A DNA stretch of 36,702 bases from Thermoproteota archaeon (GTDB lineage Archaea > Thermoproteota > Thermoprotei_A > Sulfolobales > Ignicoccaceae), in the NCBI GenBank assembly GCA_013154085.1, contig JAADDE010000034.1, forward strand, positions 1 through 36,702. The letters run 5' to 3'. The notes below the pieces were generated by a model. The model was not told the DNA's origin. It ran no database searches and saw only the letters and a program-made list of their open reading frames with translations. Made by a program: the position numbers and the translations under genes. Positions 3,672 through 10,648 of this stretch are shown in pieces. Within the stretch, counting starts at the first letter, position 1; each line of letters begins with the position of its first letter.

Positions 3672-4694
3672 CTACTCGTAACCCAGCTCTCTTCTCACTT
3701 CCTTTGTAGCGTCAACCATAACCTTCATTTTCTTGAAAGCTATATCCCTGTCCCCGAGGATCTTCAGTCCGCAGTCGGGCTTCACGTAGACGCGCTCGGG
3801 CGGCATTATCTCCAGCACCTTGTATATTGCATTCTTTATGAAATCCTTGCTCTCTACCTTTTTAGAGTGGATATCTATCACGCCGTATCCCAGCTCCTTA
3901 CCGCTACTCGCGTAGTCGTACTCCTTTATCGCTTCAAGCAAGCGGAAGTTGTTATTGACGAATTCGAGATCAAACTGATCGACGGGGAAGTCCAACAGAT
4001 CTGGGAACAGCTTCTCTACGTTCCCGTGGCAGATGTGGACTATCTTCTTAGCGTCGTCCATTCCTTTGAAGACTATTGAAAGCGCCTCCTTGGTTATCTC
4101 TATATCTTCCTTATATGGGTGTGTTGACAGAGCTGGCTCGTCGACTTGCAAATAGCGCGCACCAGCGTCGTAAAGCGCCTTAAGTTCGTTGTGTAGTGCC
4201 TTGGCCAAATCAATTATCAGCTCATTTCTATCGCGGTAGTAGTCGTTGAACGCCCAGTCAGCCATAGTATAGGGCCCAGTAATTATGGCCTTCACTGGTC
4301 TTCCTTGCGAGAACTCGGTGGCGTACTTCCAGTCCGTAAGCGTCATAGGCTCTTTCCACCTTATCTTGCCCACCACTATGGGCTTCCGGTAGTGCACGTT
4401 GTCGAATATCCTTACCCAGTCCTCGGGCTTATTGCCGACGACGAAGCCCTCCAAGCGTTCAGCGAAGTAGACCTCCATGTCCTCCCTTCTCTGCTCGCCG
4501 TCCGAAAGGATGTCAATGCCAGCCTTCAGCTGGTCCTCGACCGCCAGCCTTATCGCCTCACGTATCATGCGCTCGAATTCTTCTTTGCTTATTTCACCTT
4601 TGTAATACTTTTTGAGTGCCTCCTTCGCTATTGGGAATTTGGGGTAGCTACCGACGACAGTTGTAGGAAGCACCTTAGGTACTTCGTACTTCAC
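3672..4694 (-). CDS. metE: methionine synthase, cobalamin-independent type, catalytic (C-terminal-domain) subunit
   Basis: A 340-residue protein matching the catalytic C-terminal barrel of MetE, about half the length of the bacterial single-chain enzyme. It begins with the typical [12 protein letters not shown] and carries the zinc and homocysteine-binding signature: HICHGN (His and Cys ligands), the acidic segment FDLEFVNN, and VKPDCGLK near the C-terminus with the third thiolate ligand. It transfers a methyl group to homocysteine to make methionine. The gene lies 6 bases after a homologous gene without the ligands, so the pair probably forms a split MetE as seen in other Crenarchaeota. The methyl donor cannot be read from the sequence; folate or modified-pterin carriers and corrinoid proteins are all possible. 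Confidence 0.9.
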
Positions 4695-4700
4695 TTTTCT

Positions 4701-5762
4701 TCACCCCCCGTAGGCAAGCTCCCTTAACTTAAAGGCTATCTCGGCCAATCTCCTCATCTTCTTTCTAATGTAAGAGTAGGGAAGCACATCGTAGCGGTAG
4801 TTAGCACTGACGTGAATCTCGTTGGCGTCGACTTCTTCGATCAAGTTAAGCAGTTTAGCTGCCGTTTCCTCTATAGGTTCTAGCTTCACGTTGAGTGCAT
4901 CTGTAACGCCGAAGTCTATGAGCGGGTAGGGGTAGCCGTACTCGGCAAAGAGGTCCTTAGCCTCGTCGTAGTTCCAGAAGGTCATGTCGAAGCCTATACC
5001 GTCTACCCTCAAATCCAGCATCAGCTTGTAGGAATTCTCCGGGTTCTTGAAATATGTTTTCACCAGCAAGGGTGTATCGGTATAGGAAGACAGCAGATTG
5101 ATGTATTCGATGCCCAAGGCCTTCAGCTCGCCGGGGACCTCTGGGTCCACCAATGCGGGCTCCTCAAGCTGTATGTAGTCCACGAACTGCTCGATTTCGC
5201 TGATCTCATATGCAAGCGCTCTCGTCAGATCCGCCATCAGCTCATCAACGTTGTTATAGTACTGGTCGTCAACATGGAGGGCGAAGGTGAGCGGGCCGGG
5301 CAAGCTGGCCTTAAGGGGCCTGGGCGCGACTGTGCTGGCTATGTAATGCTCAGTCGCCGTCGCCGGCCTAGTGGGGCGTATCTGCTCCTTCACTACCGCC
5401 CGCTTGTAGTAAAAGTTGAGTTCGTAGTAGCGATAGTAGCCGCCCACCTCCGGAAGCTCGAAGCCCGCCCAAGTGGAAGTGAAGGGTCTGAAGACGTCGT
5501 CCCACATCAAGTGCCCCGTAGTCAGCAGGTCCAACCCTTCCTCGCACTGCTCATCGAGCACCTTGGTTAGGTTCCTCTCGAAGGTGTCGCGCAACACAGT
5601 ATAGTCCAGCTTCTTCGCTGAGTAGGCGTCGATTGCTTTCCTGAGCTCGGGCGGCCTAGGATAGCCCCCGGGGTGCGCTGCGACGACCTTTATCCTCACG
5701 CTCCCATCCGGAAGGGTCTCGCTTATGGGAGGAATATTAGGTCCTCCGTGCCTTACCGGCAA
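4701..5762 (-). CDS. MetE-like protein without zinc ligands (N-terminal-domain-like partner)
   Basis: A 353-residue TIM-barrel protein homologous to the downstream catalytic MetE half: it shares the AHPGGYPRPPEL start, SLPGPLTFALH and QLEEPALVDP segments. The residues that bind zinc in MetE are absent: the place of HICHGN is taken by LVKTYFKN and that of KPDCGL by VSANYRYD. This is the pattern of the MetE N-terminal barrel, which shapes the methyl-donor site but is not catalytic. Together the two genes would reconstitute a split MetE. Its annotated start overlaps the end of the methyltransferase gene upstream by 26 bases, consistent with one operon. The complex is inferred, not seen. Confidence 0.8.
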   Translation of the reverse strand: MPVRHGGPNIPPISETLPDGSVRIKVVAAHPGGYPRPPELRKAIDAYSAKKLDYTVLRDTFERNLTKVLDEQCEEGLDLLTTGHLMWDDVFRPFTSTWAGFELPEVGGYYRYYELNFYYKRAVVKEQIRPTRPATATEHYIASTVAPRPLKASLPGPLTFALHVDDQYYNNVDELMADLTRALAYEISEIEQFVDYIQLEEPALVDPEVPGELKALGIEYINLLSSYTDTPLLVKTYFKNPENSYKLMLDLRVDGIGFDMTFWNYDEAKDLFAEYGYPYPLIDFGVTDALNVKLEPIEETAAKLLNLIEEVDANEIHVSANYRYDVLPYSYIRKKMRRLAEIAFKLRELAYGG

Positions 5763-6315: not shown

Positions 6316-6337
6316 CGCCTCTCTCCCTGCAGGATAC

Positions 6338-6443
6338 TTGGACAGAGCACTATTACAGTACAACTATGAAGTTCATCCAAGTCTGCTCCCGTACACTTGG
6401 ACACAATGGTGGTCTTGTCCAAACGCTCTGTGCAACTGTCCAA
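6338..6443. repeat. upstream cluster of TTGGAC/GTCCAA boxes
   Basis: Within the 186-base divergent intergenic region (6316-6501) the hexamer occurs as TTGGAC at 6338-6343 and 6397-6402 and as GTCCAA at 6417-6422 and 6438-6443, with a partial copy ATCCAAG at 6376. Spacing of the last three is 20 and 21 bases, about two helical turns, and the inner pair is in inverted orientation. The extended form is TTTGGACA or TGTCCAAA. The cluster covers the probable promoters of both the methyltransferase operon and the ATPase gene, so it could be an operator; the same box recurs after the ATPase gene. Confidence 0.75.
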
Positions 6444-6501
6444 ACGATCCGGTCACTATGCTTTATCATTCTGGACTCCTACCCCTAAGGGGTCGGAGAG
6501 A

Positions 6502-7713
6502 GTGAAGGACACTGACTTCTACGAGCTCATTCGAAGATTCGAGCCGGTGCCCCTCGACGGCGACATGCTCCGGTTCTATGTAAAGAGGTACGAGCCGGAC
6601 GAACTGTTTGAAAAGCTGGTATTCGAAAAGGTGATGAAGAATAAAGGCACTGCGAGGGTTATGATCGTTGGGAGCTATGGGCTAGGAAAGACTACGTTTC
6701 TCAACTACTGGAGGACCCGTTTCGACGTGCCCTACCCCCGGAGCCCGCTGGAGGCATCAGCAAAGAAGGACATACCGATAGTGATAAAGGTCACATTCGA
6801 CGAAGATCCAAAAAAGTTCTTACACAGCTTGCTTAAGGGCATCGAAAAGGGATTTAAGAAACCCGGGTGGATCTACTACGTCGGCCTAAACCAAGAATAT
6901 GAGAAGCTCTTCAAATATATCACACAAGTGGTGGAGAACGTCCTCACGCGGTACGAGCGCTTGGGCCGCGTTGACTTGGACACCCTCAAGTCCGCTATCA
7001 GCTTCATCTTAGAGAACACCAATGTGCCTCTCGTGTTTATGATCGACGGGTTCAACTTGTCCGAGTCGTTCGAGAGCTTGGCATTTTGGTTCGACAACCT
7101 GCTCCAAGGGCAGAATAGGGCCACATTCGTAATTACGCTTACCAGCGAAACTTTACAGACCTTCCGTATGAGGTATCCTTTCATAGTCAGCAAATTTGTT
7201 GAGATACGCATACCGGGTTACACTGCGGAGGAGATGAAAAAGGTGTTCATGAAAAGGCTTGAGGACTTCTCCACCGAGGACAACCCCTACTATCCCTTTA
7301 AAGAGGAGTGGATCGAGCTGATATGGTCCCACTTCCCCATACTGAGGGACGCAATCAAGGTCGCACAGAGGGCCCTAACTTACGCAGCGAAAGAAGGGAA
7401 GCTCCGCGAGAAGCACATAGAGCTGGCAATAAGGGAGGCAGAGCGCGCCGTTGAAACTACTGTTCTGTTTGAGCTTGACGAGCTCGACAGGATGATCTTG
7501 AAAGCACTCACCGAGCTCGGCGAGGCCGGACCGAGCGACGTCACGCGCTGGCTCAAGTCTCAAGGCTACGACGTAGCGAAGAGCACGGTCCACTACCGCC
7601 TGAAAGAGCCGCTCTCGAAGAAGGGTTTGGTGGAGAAAGTAGGCAAGAGTGGGCGCAGGGGTAAGTATAGGATCGCCGACAGGCGCCTCATCGAGCTCTT
7701 GCGGTACCTCTAA
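6502..7713 (+). CDS. ORC1/Cdc6-like AAA+ ATPase with C-terminal winged helix
   Basis: The open frame begins at 6397, but the first 35 codons lie within the repeat cluster; GTG 6502, preceded by GGGGTCGGAGAG, gives 403 residues and is preferred. Order of parts: Walker A GSYGLGKTT near residue 55, Walker B-like strand VFMIDGFN (Gly replaces the usual Glu), sensor-1-like FVITLTSET, an ORC-type lid beginning IPGYTAEEMKKVF and containing LRDAIKVAQRAL (sensor 2 region), then a winged helix from about residue 320 (ELDRMILKALTELGEAG through STVHYRL). The order fits ORC/Cdc6 and related archaeal ATPases, but Walker A differs from ordinary Cdc6 (GPPGTGKT). It is flanked by TTGGAC boxes on both sides. 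It could be a replication initiator, a partition protein or an autoregulator. Confidence 0.75.
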   Translation: MKDTDFYELIRRFEPVPLDGDMLRFYVKRYEPDELFEKLVFEKVMKNKGTARVMIVGSYGLGKTTFLNYWRTRFDVPYPRSPLEASAKKDIPIVIKVTFDEDPKKFLHSLLKGIEKGFKKPGWIYYVGLNQEYEKLFKYITQVVENVLTRYERLGRVDLDTLKSAISFILENTNVPLVFMIDGFNLSESFESLAFWFDNLLQGQNRATFVITLTSETLQTFRMRYPFIVSKFVEIRIPGYTAEEMKKVFMKRLEDFSTEDNPYYPFKEEWIELIWSHFPILRDAIKVAQRALTYAAKEGKLREKHIELAIREAERAVETTVLFELDELDRMILKALTELGEAGPSDVTRWLKSQGYDVAKSTVHYRLKEPLSKKGLVEKVGKSGRRGKYRIADRRLIELLRYL

Positions 7714-7718
7714 GGGAG

Positions 7719-7760
7719 ATTTGGACACGATTTGGACGTGCTTTAGACTTCTTTTGTCCA
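7719..7760. repeat. left downstream TTTGGAC boxes
   Basis: ATTTGGAC occurs at 7719-7726 and again at 7730-7737, exactly 11 bases apart in the same orientation, immediately after the ATPase stop codon. A degenerate copy CTTTAGAC follows at 7741-7748, also 11 bases on, and an inverted copy TTTTGTCCA lies at 7752-7760. Confidence 0.8.
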
Positions 7761-7950
7761 GCCTCTGCACACCATGTTGTATACATAATTGTACTTCCGA
7801 ACGCATCGAGCCTCCAAACCCGGGAACCCCACAGCAACGTACATTCCAAAAGAATTCATTATACAAAACGACTTTCAAAACCTAACATCTCCACCGCTCA
7901 CGCCGCTTAGCGCGGTCGGTTCGGATCGTCTAAGCGCAGATACAAATCAA

Positions 7951-7990
7951 AGTCCAACAGCAGTCCAAGGTTTGTCCAAACTCTGTCCAA
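7951..7990. repeat. four GTCCAA iterons with exact 11-base period
   Basis: GTCCAA begins at 7952, 7963, 7974 and 7985: four same-orientation copies with exactly 11 bases between starts, so all lie on one face of the helix. Flanks vary (AGTCCAACAG, AGTCCAAGG, TGTCCAAAC, TGTCCAACT), so this is not a simple tandem duplication but a conserved core in phase. Orientation is opposite to the TTTGGAC copies at 7719-7737. It ends 1 base before the stop codon of the SPOUT gene. Confidence 0.85.
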
Positions 7991-7991
7991 C

Positions 7992-8822
7992 TCATTCGCA
8001 GAGACCGGACTCCAGGGATGAGATGAGGCCGACCGACGCCCATAGGGCTTCCTCGAGTCTCACAGTCTTCACACCCTGACAAGGAATTATGTTGACTACC
8101 AAGTCAACGTCCACGTCCGGATACTTCTCCGGAATCCCTGCGTCCGGAGAACCGAACATGAGTGCCACGTCGCCGGGCACGACTTCTCTGAGCTTGCCCG
8201 GCCACTCTCCTTGCCTACTTGTGACCACAACCTTAAGCTTCTCTCTTTTGTAATATTCGATTGCATCATAGATTGTCTTGAAATACCTCACTTCAAAGCC
8301 TAGGTACGCTCCCCGCCAGATGCCCCTTTTCATTCCGATAACCTTCTTTACTTTTCTCTTTTTATCGAAAGCTACTAAGACCAGCGAGCCCTTTCTGCAC
8401 GACTTCAGCTTTGCTCGAATCCTGCTCTCCTCGCCGACGTCTATAACAGCGTTCGAGCCGTGCTCACAAGCGACGACCAAACCCACCTTGAACAGCAACC
8501 CTTCCTCGCGGTCCACGAAGCCCTCGTTCAGTTCCTTTATTGTAACCGGCGGCAGTACGCCGGCATATCGTAGCTCCGGCCTCAAGGGGAAGGCGAGCTT
8601 CCTCAAATAGGCTGGGTAGCTGAGGTACGTAAGCACGCTCATGAGGACGTCGAAGCCGGGCCCCGGAGGGCCGTAGACGTCAACGCCCTCAGCTCTCAAG
8701 GTAGCCGCCGCTCTGGCGATGTACCCTGCGACTAGGGTCTTTTCGCGCAAGGAGGGATTTGCCGAAAGCGCGTCTCCCGGTATGGAAATGCGGAGCCTCC
8801 TATAATAGCACCTCAAAAGCAT
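7992..8822 (-). CDS. SPOUT-superfamily RNA methyltransferase (DUF171 / C9orf114-like)
   Basis: About 276 residues from ATG 8822. The start of the protein (RRLRISIPGDALSANPSLREKT) and the C-terminal knot region (IIPCQGVKTVRLEEA, then LWASVGLI) match the Methyltrn_RNA_3 family related to human SPOUT1/C9orf114; the segment VALMFGSPDAGIPE fits the cofactor-binding part of the trefoil knot. An internal region around residues 110-170 would be the inserted OB-like domain. Members bind RNA and are predicted SAM-dependent methyltransferases; the archaeal target is not known to me. Its ATG overlaps the stop of a 30-codon gene upstream (TGATG), implying coupled translation. Confidence 0.85.
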   Translation of the reverse strand: MLLRCYYRRLRISIPGDALSANPSLREKTLVAGYIARAAATLRAEGVDVYGPPGPGFDVLMSVLTYLSYPAYLRKLAFPLRPELRYAGVLPPVTIKELNEGFVDREEGLLFKVGLVVACEHGSNAVIDVGEESRIRAKLKSCRKGSLVLVAFDKKRKVKKVIGMKRGIWRGAYLGFEVRYFKTIYDAIEYYKREKLKVVVTSRQGEWPGKLREVVPGDVALMFGSPDAGIPEKYPDVDVDLVVNIIPCQGVKTVRLEEALWASVGLISSLESGLCE

Positions 8823-8984: not shown

Positions 8985-10037
8985 ATGGACAAGTTGAGGG
9001 TAGCAGTTCTGGGCGCCACTGGAATGGCCGGACAGTGGTTCGCGTCGCTACTAGAAGAGCACCCCTATTTCGAGCTAGTGGCCCTTGGAGCCTCAAAGCG
9101 ATCGGCGGGCAAGAGGTACCGCGAGGCAGTCAAGTGGATAATCCCAAGACCGTTTCCCGAAAAGTTCGGCGACCTCGTGGTCTTCGACGCCTCGGACCCA
9201 GAATCCCTCCCAGAGAAGGTGGACTTCGTGTTCTCTGCCCTTCCCAGCGAGGTAGCGGGCGAAATAGAGCTGAAGTATCTCAAAAAGGGAATAGACGTAA
9301 TTTCAAACGCATCTCCGTTCAGACTGGAGCCAGACGTGCCTCTGATGAACCCGGAAATAAACGCGGATCACTTGGAACTGCTAAAGAATCAAAAGAGGTG
9401 GGGCGCAAAGCTTGTGAAAAATCCGAACTGCACTACAGCCGTTCTTACCTTACCCCTGAAGCCGATACTGGACGAATTCGGTATAGAGGATATTAGCGTC
9501 GTAACGATGCAAGCCATAAGCGGGGCGGGCTTCGCGGGCCTCACCGCCTACTCTATAGTAGACAACTTAATCCCGTACATCTCTAAAGAGGAATACAAAG
9601 TAAAGGTGGAGTCTAAGAAGATGCTTGGAGCTTTGCGCAATGGCCAAATCGTTCCAGCCGACTTCATAATAGAAGCGACGACCACCAGGGTGCCGGTTCT
9701 CGACGGCCACACGGAGGTCGTCTACGTGAAGACTGAGAGAGCGACCGACGCGGAGGCCGTAAAAGATGCTCTCAATTCCTTCAAGGGCGAGCCCCAGCTC
9801 CTTTCCCTGCCCACAGCACCCGAGAGGCCCGTGATCGTAAGGGAGGAGCCCGACAGACCTCAACCGCGCTTGGACAGGATGAACGGCAACGGGATGTCTG
9901 TCACTGTGGGGAGAATAGAAGTAATGGACACAAAGAGGATAAGGATGGTCCTCGTCGGCCACAACCTCTTGAGGGGAGCGTCCGGAGTGAGCTTGCTGAC
10001 GGCCGAACTGATGTATAAGAAGGGCTACATGACGTAG
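8985..10037 (+). CDS. asd: aspartate-semialdehyde dehydrogenase
   Basis: A 350-residue enzyme that reduces aspartyl phosphate to aspartate semialdehyde with NADPH, the branch point to lysine, methionine, threonine and isoleucine. The N-terminal dinucleotide-binding motif is [14 protein letters not shown]; the catalytic cysteine is in NPNCTTAVL near residue 148, followed by [11 protein letters not shown], and the active-site base is probably His in the segment [11 protein letters not shown] or nearby. Length and order fit the archaeal/fungal type. It starts at ATG 8985 after a GGGAAGAG ribosome-binding sequence and ends overlapping the convergent NYN gene by 13 bases. Confidence 0.95.
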
Positions 10038-10648
10038 TATTTACTCCAGTCCTCCCTTTCTTCCCTCTCCTCCGCAAGTTCTTCGTGGCGAGCGGAGACC
10101 TCTCTTCTGCGCTTCTTTCTCTTTGGCCGCACGTCGGGGTAGAAGTAGACTTCGTTCCCCGCTATAAGGTATTTCACTACGCGGTACTTGTCCCTGACCC
10201 AGGGAAACTGCTCCCTCCACTCTTTGAAGACGTCGTTGCTTATTATCAGTCCATACTCCCTTTCTGCGATAGACAAAATGAAGTAGTCCGCCGGCGTTCC
10301 TGCGGGTGTCTGAAGCACCTTCCCTTTATTTAGAAGCTTCTCAAGCACCTCGGGCTTATCCACCTTGTACCGCAGCGAGGCGTCGGCCACAGCGTAAACT
10401 TCAAACCCCCTTTTCTTCAAGGCATCCATGACTATCAATAGGTTTTCGATCCTTCCTTTGTTGTTGGGTTTAGGACCGTGCAGTACCACGTTGGAGGCGT
10501 CCACCACGGCGACGGAGTGCGGGACCCTAACCCTCGCGTGGCGCGGAGCGCTCTTCTTTTCGACATATCTCTTTAGGCGAGGTACCAGCAAGTTCGTCGC
10601 GAGCGTGACTGTAACAGCCAGCAATATCGCCAGTAAGTACTCCCACAT
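10025..10648 (-). CDS. membrane-tethered Zc3h12a-like NYN ribonuclease
   Basis: A 207-residue protein with one N-terminal transmembrane helix (residues about 3-25) followed by a basic stretch and a PIN/NYN-type nuclease domain. The segments VAVVDASNVVLHG (first catalytic Asp), YAVADASLRYKVD, TPAGTPADYFILS and LIISNDVFKEWREQ match the Zc3h12a/Regnase-1 family (PF11977), where clustered aspartates bind Mg2+ for RNA cleavage. The C-terminus is a highly charged Arg/Lys/Glu tail. The predicted topology puts the nuclease in the cytoplasm at the membrane. It stands alone between asd and hisG and overlaps asd tail to tail. Family assignment is from motif order. Confidence 0.8.
   Translation of the reverse strand: MWEYLLAILLAVTVTLATNLLVPRLKRYVEKKSAPRHARVRVPHSVAVVDASNVVLHGPKPNNKGRIENLLIVMDALKKRGFEVYAVADASLRYKVDKPEVLEKLLNKGKVLQTPAGTPADYFILSIAEREYGLIISNDVFKEWREQFPWVRDKYRVVKYLIAGNEVYFYPDVRPKRKKRRREVSARHEELAEEREEREDWSKYYVM

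Follow-up and report, generated by a model that had tools for sequence, protein, structure and literature searches.

The locus described here raises the question of what a ladder of regularly spaced repeats does between the converging ends of two genes, beside a gene for an AAA+-type ATPase with a winged helix. It lies in a window of 36,702 nucleotides (the whole stretch of DNA that was analyzed) from a 1.18-Mb Ignicoccus assembly, G000. Our comparison set comprised five genomes of the genus, including two that each consist of one closed contig, G017 (1,297,538 bases) and G006 (1,394,664 bases), and a more AT-rich relative, G038. We take G017 to be I. hospitalis KIN4/I and G006 to be I. islandicus, the species being inferred. 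The genomes were covered through selected stretches and sequence searches, short of complete tiling. The ATPase gene is present in four of the five genomes; in the fifth, whose assembly is 56% complete, we found no match.

Phased boxes in a convergent gap

The gap spans 278 bp (positions 7714 to 7991) between the stop of the ATPase gene at 7713 and the end of a minus-strand gene for a SPOUT-like RNA methyltransferase at 7992, confirming that both flanking genes end in it, as an earlier note on this DNA had stated. It contains two inward-facing arms with six exact TTGGAC boxes in 11-bp steps, which form four phased pairs. Between the arms lies a match to ucm, a motif of 11 bp that all three Sulfolobus origins (oriC1, oriC2, and oriC3) and the two origins of Aeropyrum pernix carry in their unwinding regions; a ucm-binding protein, UBP, binds it and contacts MCM (PMC12141716). 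The features of the gap are as follows.

7720 to 7727, plus strand: left arm box L1, TTTGGACA
7731 to 7738, plus strand: left arm box L2, TTTGGACG, 11 bp after L1
7742 to 7749, plus strand: left arm box L3, TTTAGACT, degenerate here but complete or nearly so in the relatives
7777 to 7783, minus strand: incomplete ucm copy in inverted orientation, TTGTATA, retained in three of the four species
7825 to 7899, no strand: AT-rich core, putative duplex unwinding element, 64% AT compared to 36 to 52% in the flanks
7858 to 7869, plus strand: core element ATTATACAAAAC, ucm-like, putative UBP site or unwinding region, halfway between the arms where AT content peaks
7928 to 7947, minus strand: two degenerate right-arm boxes (GTCTAA and ATACAA), in a 12-bp and then a 23-bp register, in all four species
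7951 to 7958, minus strand: right arm box R1, GTTGGACT
7962 to 7969, minus strand: right arm box R2, CTTGGACT
7973 to 7980, minus strand: right arm box R3, TTTGGACA
7984 to 7991, minus strand: right arm box R4, GTTGGACA, immediately adjoining the convergent gene's stop

The earlier description was confirmed. The four GTCCAA cores were found exactly where they had been reported (7952, 7963, 7974, and 7985). The degenerate third copy of TTTGGAC is TTTAGAC at 7742, the inverted copy is the degenerate TGTCCAGC at 7755, and the 7-bp inverted repeat consists of TTGTATA at 7777 to 7783 and TATACAA at 7860 to 7866. The two TTTGGAC copies on the opposite strand exist as well, but they had been placed one base off, at 7719 and 7730 instead of 7720 and 7731. 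The right half of the 7-bp inverted repeat is part of the ucm element; the left half represents a second, incomplete ucm in inverted orientation, some 80 bp away from the main copy. In the window's species the AT-richness of the core is only moderate. An Rfam scan detected no RNA family at the locus.

In 5,000 dinucleotide shuffles of the gap, we obtained a mean of 0.19 boxes and a maximum of 3, and one shuffle contained a single phased pair. Exact TTGGAC-N5-TTGGAC occurs four times in the 1.18-Mb assembly, every time at the locus, compared to no occurrence of a reversed control pattern, even with one mismatch. Exact 11-bp phased pairs are confined to the locus in all four species (four in G000, three each in G006 and G017, and one in G038), and TTTGGACA-TTGGAC pairs no more than 30 bp apart are almost restricted to it. 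The four species share one register—0/11/22 in the left arm and 0/12/35/46/57(/68) in the right arm—which is conserved base by base in species whose GC contents differ widely. Four Ignicoccus species have retained the gene together with the two arms in this register, and one of the outcomes that the earlier note had listed as refuting, a loss of the boxes in relatives that keep the gene, is not observed in any of them.

The neighboring ATPase and its promoter region

Further boxes, overlooked in the earlier note, precede the ATPase gene.

6337 to 6344, plus strand: upstream box 1, CTTGGACA, where the divergent methyltransferase gene starts
6396 to 6403, plus strand: upstream box 2, CTTGGACA
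6416 to 6423, minus strand: upstream box 3, TTTGGACA, promoter-proximal
6437 to 6444, minus strand: upstream box 4, TTTGGACA, promoter-proximal, just ahead of a TATA-like CTTTATC
6502 to 7713, plus strand: putative initiator gene (AAA+-type ATPase with a C-terminal winged helix, 403 aa), with a GTG start

The encoded protein has a P-loop (GSYGLGKT), a Walker B-like FMIDGF, a lid (RIPGYTAEEMKKVF), a sensor-2-like arginine, and a winged helix-turn-helix (wHTH) at residues 331 to 386; its domain order—AAA+, lid, winged helix—is that of Orc1/Cdc6. Orthologues in three other Ignicoccus species are 75 to 83% identical to it, with an almost invariant winged helix, and the gene is linked to the locus in all four species, its initiator activity being inferred. 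No full-length homologue was found outside the genus in about 400 other genomes of the order and phylum. The Walker B glutamate is missing in all four orthologues (VFMIDGF or FLIDSF, that is, IDGF or IDSF), which is unusual in an AAA+ initiator.

The ORC-like gene proposed earlier is linked to the repeats, but its likeness to Orc1/Cdc6 is only distant. The Orc1/Cdc6 model TIGR02928 gives 25.6 bits against a cut-off of 181.3, with a match limited to the lid-to-wHTH stretch, and hhalign against an Orc1/Cdc6 alignment gives 84.5% probability over the lid and wHTH. By these sequence-based measures, the ATPase is Orc-like in domain order yet outside the Orc1/Cdc6 family by the curated cut-off; Orc1/Cdc6 genes above that cut-off are located elsewhere in the genomes. 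An AlphaFold2 model built from two sequences only (pLDDT 48) was too poor for use. Paralogue-like matches in the same genome and in the order were discarded as generic winged helices (a Csa3-type CARF regulator and a threonine-synthase fusion), and a further one was a true Orc1/Cdc6.

The four upstream boxes lie in the divergent promoter region of the ATPase gene in the orientation ++--, and the 59-bp spacing between boxes 1 and 2 is kept in three species. Because these boxes occupy the gene's own promoter region, we infer a regulatory role in addition to that of an origin. Closely after upstream box 1 we also observed a strictly conserved block, CACTATTACAGTACAACT (window 6336 to 6400; also in L019 and L018), which probably serves as promoter for the divergent methyltransferase gene or as a site for another factor. 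Elsewhere in the window, two adjacent cobalamin-independent methionine synthase-like genes (3672 to 5762) each match both Meth_synt_1 and Meth_synt_2, and positions 10025 to 10648 encode a protein with a Zc3h12a-like NYN ribonuclease domain (Pfam PF11977, 98 bits), of a family best known from animals.

The ucm element and the ORB-type origin

At the local AT maximum of the core, ATTATACAAAA (window 7858 to 7868) is identical in all four species while the rest of the inter-arm sequence has diverged, making it the sole invariant element apart from the boxes. It matches Sulfolobus ucm, ATTATACAAAC, at 10 of 11 positions, with the first ten bases identical; the Sulfolobus sequence was defined by an affinity oligonucleotide and a mutated control (PMC12141716), and at Sulfolobus oriC1 the motif is essential and occupies the midpoint between ORB2 and ORB3 (Dhanaraju et al. 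2025, PMC12141716). The shorter ATTATACAAA occurs only once in G017 (1.30 Mb) and once in G000 (1.18 Mb), each time at the locus, three times in G006 (at the locus, at the ORB origin described below, and at 597 kb), and six times in G038, the locus and the ORB origin among them; a first-order model predicts 9e-5 occurrences per 300 bp in G017 and 8e-4 in G006. In the 1.39 Mb of G006, the 12-mer ATTATACAAAAC with at most one mismatch is found in just two places, one at the locus and one at the ORB origin. Shuffles matched for composition give a less extreme picture, producing a ucm with at most one mismatch at the locus in 0.5 to 3% of cases per species, and the weight of the motif therefore rests on its position, invariance, and genome-wide rarity taken jointly. 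Nor would ucm alone suffice to make an origin, given that Sulfolobus UBP also binds ∼329 non-origin sites. Other matches with at most one mismatch, on contig C8 of G000 and at 513 kb in G017, were rejected: they lack flanking inverted repeats and apparently lie in coding sequence. Among the small basic open reading frames of sampled I. hospitalis DNA (∼40% of the genome, with two candidates tested and no UBP sequence as query), no UBP was identified.

A mini-ORB search located a classical ORB origin in three Ignicoccus species.

L100:2785-3270 (G017:C1 26.8-27.3 kb), L109:2059-2538, and L108:1986-2450: ORB-type oriC1, with 46- to 52-bp inverted repeats and a 360- to 395-bp AT-rich core

In G017, an inverted repeat of 46 bp, near-perfect and containing TTCCACTGGAA as well as a CCCCTA string, encloses a 394-bp AT-rich core, and at the orthologous sites in G006 (614.3 to 614.8 kb) and G038 the arms measure 51 to 52 bp and are 96% complementary. 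The repeats contain a TTCCA-type ORB and a G-string, and the core holds an exact ucm in G038, ATTATACAAAAC in G006, and a weaker ATTAGACAAAAC in G017 (hospitalis), the last of which is not significant on its own against composition-matched shuffles. No orc1/cdc6 gene adjoins oriC1 in the three species. This agrees with Podar et al. 2008 (PMC2614490), where a passage on the predicted I. hospitalis origin gives Orc1/Cdc6 genes as absent from it without specifying which origin is meant. OriC1 and the locus lie at 27 and 674 kb in G017 and at 614 and 1341 kb in G006, almost diametrically opposite each other (0.499 and 0.479 of the circumference, respectively), as expected for two evenly spaced origins. 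Both have inverted arms around an AT-rich core with ATTATACAAA(A/C) or a near match; they differ in that the arms of oriC1 are single 46- to 52-bp ORB-containing inverted repeats and no initiator gene adjoins them.

A probable second origin and the competing explanations

The locus meets two criteria of a crenarchaeal chromosomal origin, namely, inverted boxes flanking an AT-rich core and a ucm in the core between them. It does not meet that of an Orc1-1/ORB oriC1, the presence of ORB elements (TCCA..GAAA plus a G-string): a search of the locus in G000, G006, and G017 gave no ORB-like match, which bears out the earlier remark that the motif is unlike the usual ORB. As in the Sulfolobus oriC1/Orc1-1 system, inverted boxes surround an AT-rich core with ucm midway, and the gene of an AAA+/winged-helix protein, here only a putative initiator, adjoins them (PMC12141716, PMC4010727). 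In contrast to Sulfolobus oriC1, however, the locus has 11-bp-phased TTTGGACA iterons instead of ORBs, its putative initiator falls far outside the Orc1/Cdc6 family cut-off, and it occupies a convergent gap downstream of the gene.

With the oriC3-WhiP system of Sulfolobus and Aeropyrum, the locus would share the character of a second-type origin with non-ORB repeats, an adjacent winged-helix protein (here a putative initiator), and ucm, coexisting with an ORB oriC1, whereas the neighboring genes are different. For comparison we used a protein of 239 aa (L118:7528-8247, in G042, a genome taken to be that of S. acidocaldarius), which we presume to be WhiP because of where its gene lies and because it has two winged helices. 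Unlike the locus ATPase, it has no P-loop; no significant similarity between the two was detected. Judged by sequence, and with a comparison protein that is itself presumptive, the locus ATPase is not WhiP, as it shows neither tandem winged helices without a P-loop nor similarity. Directly downstream of the presumptive whiP (L118:7440-7527), there is a ucm-like TTTATACAAAC. Bacterial iteron plasmid origins and DnaA-box arrays also combine helically phased repeats, an AT-rich unwinding region, and an autoregulated initiator, features that have counterparts here, inferred in the case of the autoregulated initiator, but there is no sequence relation to them, the context is that of archaeal MCM and ORC, and two inverted arms take the place of one tandem array.

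Of the three roles suggested in the earlier note—iteron-type origin, partition site, or silencer—our comparative data favor the first, because the boxes are conserved together with the gene and with a ucm core, an element that these organisms carry in their ORB origin as well. We are thus fairly confident that the locus is a second chromosomal origin (oriC2-like) of Ignicoccus, specified by the adjacent ORC-like AAA+/winged-helix protein and existing beside the ORB-type oriC1, although its firing and the binding of the protein are inferred, without replication or binding data. The main doubts are this lack of replication data, a silent GC skew, and the position opposite oriC1, which would also suit a terminus. 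In sampled stretches, gene-corrected skew at fourfold sites makes no clear turn at the locus and no interpretable turn at the ORB origin, and is uninformative. A replication terminus or fork trap, in which the inward-facing arrays stop or pair converging forks, would account for arrays that are inverted and polar and that lie, in each of the two closed genomes, almost half the circumference away from the ORB origin. We nevertheless consider it improbable, because an origin-type ucm in an AT-rich core sits between the arms and the arms are linked to the gene of an initiator-type ATPase, which has boxes in its own promoter region. Gene orientation, too, leans toward divergence from the locus, as at an origin, but this evidence is weak (top 11 to 35% of positions, not significant). 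We know of no Tus-like trap in archaea.

That the ATPase and its boxes form a centromere-like partition site aiding chromosome segregation is suggested by the iteron arrays adjoining a gene for a DNA-binding ATPase and by the absence of SMC from the Desulfurococcales (PMC10769869). There is little to sustain it, however, since a Pfam scan of seven proteins (3.7 to 10.6 kb) revealed no ParA/SegA-type neighbor, leaving the ParABS/SegAB criterion unmet, the ATPase is AAA+/Orc-like and not of the deviant Walker A, ParA-like kind, and the ucm in its symmetric AT-rich core would remain unexplained. The ucm core is equally unaccounted for if the protein is a MalT/STAND-like transcription regulator, with the boxes as operators plus a downstream titration or looping site. 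Weak NACHT and AAA_22 matches and the boxes in the divergent promoter region speak for such a purely regulatory system, but the array that is both larger and more regularly phased sits between the ends of two converging genes, a place that calls for no promoter, and phased boxes occur nowhere else in the genomes, leaving no regulon; we regard this explanation as unlikely as well. Archaeal origins are thought to have been captured from extrachromosomal elements (PMC4010727), and the gene is restricted to the genus, so that a remnant of an integrated plasmid with a silent origin could be envisaged. We give this very little credence: no relatives of the ATPase were found in plasmid, phage, and viral collections, no integrase was present among the scanned neighbors, the window's sole tRNA gene is 27 kb away, and strong purifying constraint acts on the protein (75 to 83% identity) and on the register of the boxes, which would not be expected of a dead remnant.

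If the locus acts as a second origin, the winged helix of the ATPase would bind the boxes and build a filament-like, inward-facing array on each arm, with the 11-bp pitch, one helical turn, placing the boxes on the same face of the helix. The two arrays could then strain or melt the AT-rich core and recruit two MCM helicases around ucm, after which UBP might help to release MCM, the role proposed for it at Sulfolobus oriC1. Through the boxes in its promoter region, the initiator may be autoregulated, titrated, or both. Since all orthologues lack the Walker B glutamate, the protein may remain bound to ATP, in which case control could be exerted through its synthesis and through box occupancy.

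Multi-origin crenarchaea combine distinct initiator-site pairs with a common ucm (PMC12141716, PMC10769869, PMC4010727), and by analogy the locus fits this pattern with a new recognition module. The ORC-like gene had previously gone unnoticed and the 11-base repeat is new. Together they probably define a third archaeal replicator-initiator class beside Orc1/Cdc6-ORB and WhiP-oriC3, characterized by 11-bp TTTGGACA iterons, a ucm core, and a genus-restricted Orc-like initiator without the Walker B glutamate. Only a few classes of initiator are known from archaea, and for Ignicoccus, which hosts Nanoarchaeum equitans, the origins were previously unresolved; both candidate origins now have exact coordinates in two closed genomes of apparently cultivable species. 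If our interpretation is true, a new initiator-site pair would have just ucm in common with other origins, making the ucm/MCM step the constant part of crenarchaeal origins and the recognition module the exchangeable one.
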